DNA from: Actinobacteria bacterium Ga0077541
GTDB taxonomy: Bacteria; Actinomycetota; Thermoleophilia; Miltoncostaeales; Miltoncostaeaceae
Direction of reading: 5' to 3'
Length of the DNA: 40,038 nt
Assembly: GCA_001464995.1 (NCBI GenBank)
Contig: LNEQ01000281.1
Coordinates: 1-40,038, forward strand
The position numbers and the translations under genes were made by a program. This document shows, one piece after another, positions 14,800 through 17,222 of this stretch. The notes under the pieces were generated by a model. It was not told the DNA's origin. It searched no databases and saw only the letters and a program-made list of their open reading frames with translations. Numbering within the stretch: the first letter of the stretch is position 1; the number at the start of each line of letters is the position of its first letter.

Positions 14800-15279
14800 A
14801 TGGACAGGCCGTACGAGCGCATCGCTTGCTGCGTCGAGCGCGACGACATGGCCGCGCAGGTCATCGCCGAGGGCCTCCGGCTCGCCGGTGGCGACGCCTC
14901 CGCGCTGCAGCTGGTGCACGTGGTGGCGCCGCCGCACACGGCCGTCGCGGGCCCGTTCGCCTACATCGCGCCGGTGACCGAGATGTGGGGGGAGGCGGAG
15001 GCCTGGCTGGAGGACCGCGCGCGCGAGCACCCGGGCGCCACCCCGGTGCTGCTGGACGGCTCCCCGGCACGCGCCCTGTGCGCGTGGGCGGCCGGCCACC
15101 GCGTCGACCTGATCGTCGCCGCGGCGCACCGCGGCCGCGTCGAGCGGGCGATGCTCGGTGGCTTCGCGTCGCACATCGCCTACCACGCACCCTGCCCGGT
15201 GCTGCTCGTGCACCGGCCCCGGGACGAGGACGCCCAGGAGCCGCGCCACGCGCCGGCCGGCGCGAACGAGATCGCCTAG
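14800..15279 (+). CDS. Universal stress protein (UspA family)
   Basis: A 159-residue single USP domain. The ATG at 14800 is preceded by GGAGG at 14790-14794. The N-terminus ERIACCVERDDMAAQV resembles the other two USPs in the block (a CC or C pair followed by an acidic turn). The end reads ERAMLGGFASHIAYHAPCPVLLVHRP, with the phosphate loop GGFAS in place of GSV. It diverges from the flavodoxin-USP-CBS operon. Its TAG stop codon (15277-15279) is part of the left inverted repeat of the element at 15276-15461, so that element defines the end of the protein. Confidence 0.9.
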   Translation: MDRPYERIACCVERDDMAAQVIAEGLRLAGGDASALQLVHVVAPPHTAVAGPFAYIAPVTEMWGEAEAWLEDRAREHPGATPVLLDGSPARALCAWAAGHRVDLIVAAAHRGRVERAMLGGFASHIAYHAPCPVLLVHRPRDEDAQEPRHAPAGANEIA

Positions 15280-15461
15280 TGTCCTGATTCAGAAGTTGGC
15301 GAGTAGTTCCCGAGCGAATCTCCCGCGAGGCAAGGACGCAGTTCAGCCCCAATATCGGGAATATTGGGGCTGCCGAGGACGCCGCCTCGCGATGAGACCC
15401 CGGCCGGCCGGCGGCCGGCAAAGCCGGGAAGTGCCGCCGGACTTCTGAATCGGGACACTAG
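15276..15461. repeat. Structured intergenic element, copy A (CTAGTG...CACTAG)
   Basis: A 186-base element. Its ends, CTAGTGTCCTGATTCAGAAGT (15276-15296) and 15441-15461, are 20/21 complementary. Inside, a 28-base box at 15314-15341 (ending GGCAAGGACGCAG) precedes a perfect 12-bp hairpin (CAGCCCCAATAT 15344-15355, loop CGGGA, arm 15361-15372). Then come CCGAGGACGC (15373-15382) and a GC-rich CCGGCC repeat stretch. Copy B at 17079-17222 shares the same order of parts. The element fills the gap between convergent USP and kinase genes and supplies the TAG stop codon of both. No open frame or transposase is inside. Confidence 0.85.
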
Positions 15462-16933
15462 ATGCAGCGCTCCGCCGCACCGGCCAGGCGCAGGGCCTCG
15501 TCCCGCACGAGGCCCTGCGCCCGGCCGGTGTCGAGCGGTCGCGCCTCGGGCCACGGGGCGGCGGCCGCGGCGAGGCGGGCGGCGATCTCCGGGGTCGCAT
15601 CGGACGAGCCCCGCCCGGCGGCGCGGCGGCGGGTGATCCGCGCGGCCGCCTCAGCGGGATCGAGGCGGCACTCGATCTCGACCAGGCGGGCGCCCGCGCT
15701 CCGTGCGGCCTCTCGGGCGGCCGCGCGCCGGCCGGCGTCGCTCCACGATGCATCGAGGACGACGTCCACGCCGAGCGCGAGGCGCCCGGCGGCGCGGCGC
15801 AGCATCTGCTCGTAGACGCCGCCCGTGATCCCGGGCGCGTAGAGACCCTCTTCGAAGCCCCCGGGATCGCCCGGCGCCCGGGGCAGCCCGGCGGCGTCCT
15901 TGCGGGTCTCGTCCGAGCCGATCACCTCCCACCCGCGCGCGTCGCCCACGGCGTGGGCGACGGTGGTCTTGCCGGTGCCCGGGGCGCCCCCCACGAGCAC
16001 CATCCGCACCTGCGCGCACTCGAGGTGGCGCAGCGAGAGCTCCTGCAGCGACCGCGCCCGCGCCGCCGCTCCCGGATCGCCCTGCGCGGCGCGCAGGGCG
16101 GCCACCTTGGCCCGGACGTGCGCACGGTAGGCGACGTAGTGGTGGGCGAGCGAGTCCGGGTGGTCCTCGCCGAGCTCCCTCCCCCACTCGGACAGCAGCA
16201 CCCTGCCGAGGGCCGGATGCCCGTGGGCCTCCAGGTCCATCGCGAGGAAGGCGATGTCGCCGAGCACGTCGCCGTGCCGGAGGCGGTCGGAGAACGCGAG
16301 GCAGTCGAGCACGCGCGGCCCGTCGGCGAGGCAGAAGACGTCGTCGGCGAGCAGGTCGCCGTGCCCGTCGCGCACGCGGCCCGCGGCGATCCGGCTCTCC
16401 AGCAGCGGCACCCGTCCGGTGAGGTATGCGCGGGCGAGCCCGCGGGCGCGCGAGATCCCCTCGGCCGGCACCGCCGCCGGCACGATCGCGGCGAGCTGGT
16501 CGAGCCCCTCCTCCCAGAGGCCGAGCACGACATCGAGGCCACCCGCGCGTGCGATCCGCGCGGAGGTGGGCGCGTCGCGGTGGAACCCCGCCACCAGCCG
16601 GGCGACCTCGCGCACCAGCCCGGGCGCCTCCGGCGCGCCGAGCAGGGCCGACAGGCGCCGGGAGGCCGGCATCCTCCGCATCTCGACGAGGTGGTCGCGT
16701 GGCGTTCCGTCCTCGCCGGCGACGTCCAGCACGCCGAGGTACACGTCCGGTGCGAACCGCCGGTTCACCTCGGTCTCGCGGCGGCACGCCGCCAGGCGGT
16801 CGATGCGCAGGCGGTGGTCGAGGAAGCCCATCGCGACGGGCTTGAGGAGCTTGAAGGCCCGGTCGCCGATCAGCGCGATCACCGAGACGTGGGTCTCGAC
16901 GATCTCGGCGGGAGGTTCGGGAGATCCCGTCAT
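15458..16933 (-). CDS. Bifunctional APH-like/AAA_33 kinase, Rv2004c type
   Basis: A 491-residue two-domain protein. The N-terminal half resembles aminoglycoside phosphotransferase-like kinases, with the catalytic HGDLLADDV loop and a distal VLDCLAFSDRLRHGDVLGDI segment. The C-terminal part (from about residue 305) is a P-loop AAA_33 kinase with Walker A VGGAPGTGKTTVAHA and an aspartate-containing VLDASWSD. The same arrangement occurs in M. tuberculosis Rv2004c of the DosR regulon; the substrate is unknown. GGAGGGG lies before the ATG at 16933. The stop codon TAG lies in the right inverted repeat of element A, and element B lies upstream between this gene and the response regulator. Confidence 0.9.
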   Translation of the reverse strand: MTGSPEPPAEIVETHVSVIALIGDRAFKLLKPVAMGFLDHRLRIDRLAACRRETEVNRRFAPDVYLGVLDVAGEDGTPRDHLVEMRRMPASRRLSALLGAPEAPGLVREVARLVAGFHRDAPTSARIARAGGLDVVLGLWEEGLDQLAAIVPAAVPAEGISRARGLARAYLTGRVPLLESRIAAGRVRDGHGDLLADDVFCLADGPRVLDCLAFSDRLRHGDVLGDIAFLAMDLEAHGHPALGRVLLSEWGRELGEDHPDSLAHHYVAYRAHVRAKVAALRAAQGDPGAAARARSLQELSLRHLECAQVRMVLVGGAPGTGKTTVAHAVGDARGWEVIGSDETRKDAAGLPRAPGDPGGFEEGLYAPGITGGVYEQMLRRAAGRLALGVDVVLDASWSDAGRRAAAREAARSAGARLVEIECRLDPAEAAARITRRRAAGRGSSDATPEIAARLAAAAAPWPEARPLDTGRAQGLVRDEALRLAGAAERCI

Positions 16934-17078
16934 CGCGGCCCCTCCGGGACGCCGGCGTGGTCGGCCTCCGAGTGTGCCGCGGAGGCGGCACGGGGGCATC
17001 CGTGGGCCGGCGGCGGGTGCTGCGGGTTTCCCCGGTGGACCATCCCGACGCGCCGGCGGCCGGCGCGCGCAGGCGCGC

Positions 17079-17222
17079 CTAGTGGAGCATCCACCAACGT
17101 TGCTGGTGTTCTGGCCGCGAAAATCCCGCGGGGCAAGGACGCAGGGAGATCGCATGGCTGAGGCTATGCGTTCGACCGAGGACGCAGCATCCGCCGGCGG
17201 AGGTTGGTTGACGCTCCACTAG
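17079..17222. repeat. Structured intergenic element, copy B (CTAGTG...CACTAG)
   Basis: A 144-base element. Its ends, CTAGTGGAGCATCCACCAAC (17079-17098) and 17203-17222, are 18/20 complementary. It contains the 28-base box at 17117-17144, which differs from copy A at only three positions. It also has a hairpin CGCATGGC-TGAG-GCTATGCG (17151-17170, one G-T pair) and CCGAGGACGC at 17176-17185. Apart from CTAGTG, the outer stem sequence is unrelated to that of copy A, although both pair with themselves. It sits between the response regulator stop codon (17233) and the kinase promoter region. Confidence 0.85.

Follow-up and report, generated by a model that had tools for sequence, protein, structure and literature searches.

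Two CTAG-bounded hairpin elements in a Thermoleophilia genome point to a probable family of protein-less mobile elements with a conserved folded core and drifting ends

The window analysed here, a stretch of 40,038 nucleotides from Actinobacteria bacterium Ga0077541 (contig LNEQ01000281.1; genome G000 below), carries two copies, A and B, of a small structured element bounded on either side by CTAG. Copy A lies between two convergent genes, and the TAG stop codon of each falls within a separate CTAG copy (15276-15279 for the upstream + strand gene, whose open reading frame (ORF) ends at 15279). Direct reading of the sequence confirmed both copies, with hairpins and boxes as first described and a 28-base box identical at 25 of 28 positions, and a covariance model (R1) trained on 78 copies from many genomes scored the two at 70 and 66 bits against 15.8 bits for the next best place in the window. 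On balance, we lean towards the conclusion that these elements represent a previously undescribed family of small mobile DNA elements, which occurs in actinobacteria from soil and water and in a handful of bacteria outside that group.

The exact core pair was found 21 times in G000, against 0 times for a reversed-pattern control. Copy A belongs to family 1, with ends TGTCCTGATTCAG, and copy B to family 2, with ends TGGAGCGTC, which an end-sequence search located at more than 20 assembled places in G000; a third family, with ends TGCCGTGTCAGG, fills genome G005 with many near-identical copies. Both window families are high-copy in G000, where end-sequence matches far outnumber exact-core copies, and the outer stems of copies A and B are unlike because they come from two lineages with one common core. 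In a collection with one genome per species, the exact core occurred on at least 115 contigs, constant despite unrelated ends, an invariance that is partly built into an exact-match search and was therefore re-checked with model-found copies. Hosts among the matches listed were mostly Thermoleophilia/Solirubrobacterales and Acidimicrobiia, together with Planctomycetota and one Desulfobacteraceae metagenome-assembled genome (MAG). Among cultured hosts, Conexibacter sp. CPCC 205762 has copies (L055 and L147). A model survey of the phylum, in which at most 9 places were scored per genome, gave matches in 28 of 396 sampled genomes and 27 of 236 genera. The core pattern had no match in viral contigs, a BLAST search with copy A returned none in plasmids and phages, and no Rfam 15 model match covered the elements in the window or at nine other loci. 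We found no publication describing the element, and literature matches to the core string were unrelated. The first-pass annotation of the window, which had expected further copies in the genome and its relatives, was thus borne out on this point.

It had also proposed that structure is kept while sequence changes, and here tests of stem covariation agree with it. Across 17 family-1 copies, the outer stem at fixed offsets had 92.6% of cells paired, compared with 30-48% when the arms were slid, and double changes occurred at 13 of its 19 pairs. These amounted to 45 double-change cells against 13.4 in shuffles, while the inner stem adjoining the core, in 78 diverse copies, was 91.6% paired with 125 such cells against 45; the shuffles ignore relatedness, so that these covariation counts are not probabilities, and the inner-stem structure was derived from the same 78-copy alignment on which it was tested. 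We have shown in this way that the fold of the core strand is conserved, rather than the sequence of the ends. Copy A itself folds at -111 kcal/mol as RNA on the core strand, with z -9.3 relative to shuffles, and at z -9.1 as DNA.

The two core boxes, which the first-pass annotation had read as near-repeats that might serve as separate protein or RNA contacts, turned out to be opposite strands of one internal loop, 5'-GGAC-3'/5'-GGAC-3' (G-C, G.A, A.G, C-G). This was established from the covariation at 49 model-found places that were not picked by exact core (48 of them distinct, L298 and L326 being the same place), where GGAC on the left is accompanied by GGAC on the right, and GGCC by GAAC. 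Specifically, base 3 of the left strand and base 2 of the right were A.G in 28 cases, C.A in 18, A.A in 2 and C.C in 1 (Fisher 1e-11, uncorrected for relatedness); in one copy, L336, the closing C-G of the loop is replaced by A-T. C.A is compatible with the geometry of a sheared A.G pair. A.G and A.A are themselves isosteric sheared pairs in RNA motifs (PMC8450098).

An important aspect of the fold is its strand asymmetry. On the core strand, stem G.U outnumbered A.C by 211:71 (p=3e-17, symmetrical score), and the excess was replicated in a second set (100:31, p=1e-9); because a double-stranded DNA substrate predicts equality, this argues against such a substrate. The core strand lies antisense to neighbouring genes in 27 copies, sense in 14 and between convergent genes in 13, with G.U to A.C ratios of 37:9 in tandem-sense and 66:22 in tandem-antisense copies. 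Since the excess persists in antisense copies, whichever way the neighbours run, selection is not on read-through mRNA, which this orientation test rules out. Two readings fit the core strand: selection acts on it in its folded single-stranded form, or it becomes exposed in single-stranded form and is deaminated. The covariation favours the former. The sequence evidence thus indicates that one strand folds, as RNA or as single-stranded DNA, under selection.

Both window copies are real insertions, with CTAG on either side. In G002, a genome of the same genus whose orthologous region was located with a 491-aa protein query, both sites are empty: site A holds one CTAG, common to the stop codons of both convergent genes, and site B a single CTA followed by C. 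A third locus is filled in L009 and reads as a single CTAG in G001 (L260). The CTAG edges, already suspected to be a target duplication, are thus confirmed as one, and the duplicated unit is CTAG or the TA within it, which are inseparable because the target is palindromic. The same edges are common to families with unlike ends, and near-identical recent copies occur amid different neighbours in both G000 and G005. A site filled in G000 (L211) reads CTAG-GGCA-CTAG in G002 (L259), possibly the remnant (footprint) of an excision, or of a deletion.

The placement of the elements relative to genes follows a recurring pattern. In many copies the element edges are stop codons, and in more than 10 a start codon directly follows the 3' arm, the arm itself often containing a GGAGG-like site. 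At the rplN-rpsQ gap of two genomes (L131:980-1160 and L142:3660-3840), inspection revealed an orthologous copy with three double compensatory changes in place, hinting that structure is the reason why some resident copies, at least here, are retained. In G033, what looked like an orthologous element between rplE and rpsN proved not to be an element. Copies placed exactly between stop and start codons in ribosomal-protein operons were observed in several genomes: L131 (509, 1042, 3642), L142 (3726, 2210), L033, L067 and L102.

Given these results, the explanation to which we give somewhat better than even weight is that of non-autonomous, protein-less mobile elements of about 100-180 bp that are recognised by their folded core. 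The core strand would form one long hairpin broken by the conserved internal loop, and a trans-acting enzyme would recognise this folded core, either in an RNA copy of the element that acts as guide or substrate, or in single-stranded DNA. Such an enzyme would set the ends by the shape of the paired stem together with a CTAG-like target, so that the outer stem could drift while its pairing holds. Insertion between stop and start codons would be nearly harmless, since these GC-rich hosts have few CTAG sites outside stop codons, and a GGAGG-type ribosome-binding site is often present in the 3' arm. A bolder proposal, which we put forward tentatively, is that the elements belong to a categorically new mobile system, in which a folded single strand (RNA or single-stranded DNA) with a conserved tandem G.A internal loop acts as the transposition signal, the ends are set by pairing and not by sequence, and a putative enzyme common to several phyla would serve the elements.

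Several results weigh against recognition of the folded core by a shared enzyme. Our searches for enzyme families included Y1_Tnp, DDE_Tnp_1, DDE_3, rve and RVT_1 (IS110, IS256 and TnpB-type enzymes were not among them), and none of these five was common to the element-bearing genomes; in particular, reverse transcriptase (RVT_1, PF00078) was not found in any element-bearing relative searched. The lack of a transposase in G000 and G005 is weak evidence, because both are incomplete MAGs (92.8% and 73% complete). Moreover, the flanks of many older copies are non-identical repeats, and ends within lineages show a loose G-N-G-N-C-style resemblance, with which a tolerant end-binding transposase remains compatible. 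As to the form of the folded strand, the drifting outer arm shows no sign of a conserved promoter; this counts against RNA and favours single-stranded DNA, while RNA is suited by the sheared-pair character of the loop.

A narrower version of the same idea holds that the element is a recombination substrate resembling integron attC sites or repetitive extragenic palindromes (REP/REPIN): a single-stranded DNA hairpin whose exposed strand is copied by a tyrosine or HUH enzyme, with no part played by RNA. This seems to us rather unlikely, though several features fit it. In integron attC sites, one strand folds and structure is kept rather than sequence. The present element is alike in its strand-specific fold, conserved internal irregularities and free stem sequence, and antisense copies would pose no problem, since no transcript is required. 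However, neither the attC R-box (GTTRRRY/RYYYAAC) at the element ends nor a cassette array was seen, and RNA motifs are where an A.G/C.A switch is typically seen, although sheared pairs are present in DNA as well. REP/REPIN and CGTC-tagged REPs (PMC3733652) are likewise extragenic palindromes between convergent or tandem genes, and the CGTC REPs also have no known transposase, but they are 20-40 bp hairpins tagged with GTAG or CGTC, the CGTC stems being 8-9 bp, whereas the elements here span 100-180 bp and contain an internal loop. Hairpins of the smaller size with either tag at their base were not seen in the element sequence, and most hosts searched have no REP-associated tyrosine transposase (RAYT): Y1_Tnp (PF01797) was not found in G000, G001, G002, G005, G011 or G033, though it is present in G034. 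The REP-like origin raised at first therefore found no support.

It is unlikely, in our judgement, that the elements are ordinary miniature inverted-repeat transposable elements (MITEs), each family moved by its own DDE transposase (e.g., IS630-like) through terminal repeats, with the core as a hitch-hiking RNA or protein-binding module. The resemblance is nevertheless considerable. Like bacterial MITEs (ERIC, Correia/NEMIS, RUP and YPAL/RU-2; PMC2229807), the elements are small (178 bp and 136 bp), protein-less, intergenic and hairpin-forming, with terminal inverted repeats whose arms pair, and CTAG stands at both edges where empty sites have a single CTAG or CTA; YPAL/RU-2, of about 168 bp, similarly duplicates its target (PMC2229807). 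IS630 has a preference for TA within CTAG (Tenzen and Ohtsubo 1991, as given in PMC2170065), and some element ends resemble those of insertion sequences (IS). On the other hand, MITE ends are common to one family and tied to a transposase, whereas here the ends differ among core-sharing families and drift with compensation, the inner core is conserved across phyla, and no autonomous relative was seen at matching ends in G000 or G005. A strand-asymmetric G.U excess would also be unexpected for a double-stranded substrate. In these two genomes no IS with matching ends was found, all paired end matches being 98-169 bp apart with no pair at IS length, and none of DDE_3, DDE_Tnp_1, Y1 or reverse transcriptase was detected, with rve giving 1 match in G000 and none in G005. 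More broadly, DDE_3 (PF13358) was not found in G000, G001, G002, G005, G033 or G034 and is present in G011, although most of these genomes are incomplete and may have lost it, and DDE_Tnp_1 was not found in G000, G005, G033 or G034; the suggested IS630-type and IS5-type sources thus found no support in these genomes. Of the initial choice between a MITE-like family and a structured RNA, it can be said that the element behaves like both; it has no Rfam match, and its terminal repeats are unlike between families. Many copies exist and none was found adjoining a matching transposase.

Least probable of all, and in our opinion quite improbable, is an RNA element of use to the host (as a 3' end, leader or operon spacer) that spreads and is then kept in place for its RNA function, for while the compensatory changes at rplN-rpsQ, the recurrence in ribosomal-protein operons and the ribosome-binding sites provided by 3' arms before start codons would suit it, the core strand runs both ways relative to genes, antisense copies retain the G.U excess on the core strand, and copies are missing from the related genome G002.

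Structured guide RNAs are also carried by small mobile elements of the IS110 or TnpB/IscB type, which do not have long self-complementary ends. The present element would share with them a structured RNA on a mobile element, but has such ends and no Rfam match. Small transposons are normally defined by their ends, whereas here the ends are free and the inner fold is fixed. If confirmed, recognition of the folded core would constitute a new type of mobile signal with a concrete route to its enzyme, and would account for many unannotated hairpins between genes in Thermoleophilia and Acidimicrobiia, some of them inside ribosomal-protein operons.

Table 1. Parts of copies A and B and their positions in the window.
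Feature	Position	Strand	Basis or remark
Left CTAG of copy A / target duplication	15276-15279	none	single CTAG at empty G002 site
Copy A, complete element, family 1	15280-15457	+ (core strand)	178 bp
Copy A outer stem, left arm, 19 nt	15279-15297	+	covariation with right arm, 17 family-1 copies
Copy A outer stem, right arm	15440-15458	+	covariation with left arm
Copy A core left strand GCAAGGACGCAG, GGAC at 15334-15337	15330-15341	+	exact-core search, loop covariation
Copy A apical hairpin, 12 bp, loop CGGGA	15344-15372	+	sequence reading, folding
Copy A core right strand GAGGACGC, GGAC at 15377-15380	15375-15382	+	exact-core search, loop covariation
Right CTAG of copy A	15458-15461	none	TAG stop of convergent - strand kinase-like gene (ORF 15458-17155)
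Left CTAG of copy B	17079-17082	none	single CTA at empty G002 site
Copy B, family 2	17083-17218	+ (core strand)	136 bp; 144 bp with both CTAGs
Copy B core left strand GCAAGGACGCAG	17133-17144	+	exact-core search
Copy B core right strand GAGGACGC	17178-17185	+	exact-core search
Right CTAG of copy B	17219-17222	none	sequence reading, G002 comparison

Copy B folds more weakly (z -3.3), because its right arm is some 24 nt shorter than that of full-length copies, for instance L016 and L213. Gaps of about 20 nt, located at a different internal position from copy to copy, are present in many of the family-2 copies in G000, whose total length nevertheless hardly varies at 146-151 bp (L009, L018, L184, L185, L187, L188, L212 and L214-L219, besides copy B). 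These gaps may be an artefact of short-read assembly; our conclusions on the element rest on copies from many other assemblies besides G000.

Some minor observations concern how copies are arranged and recorded. L023 and L053 are the same contig, which occurs in G020 (same family as the window genome) and in a Thermoleophilia record. At L118:1035-1309, two tandem elements have one CTAG in common. In Thermoleophilia FR_37 (L054, L066, L112 and L136), one element is nested in the core of another (GGCAA|GGACGC), at the same place in several copies.
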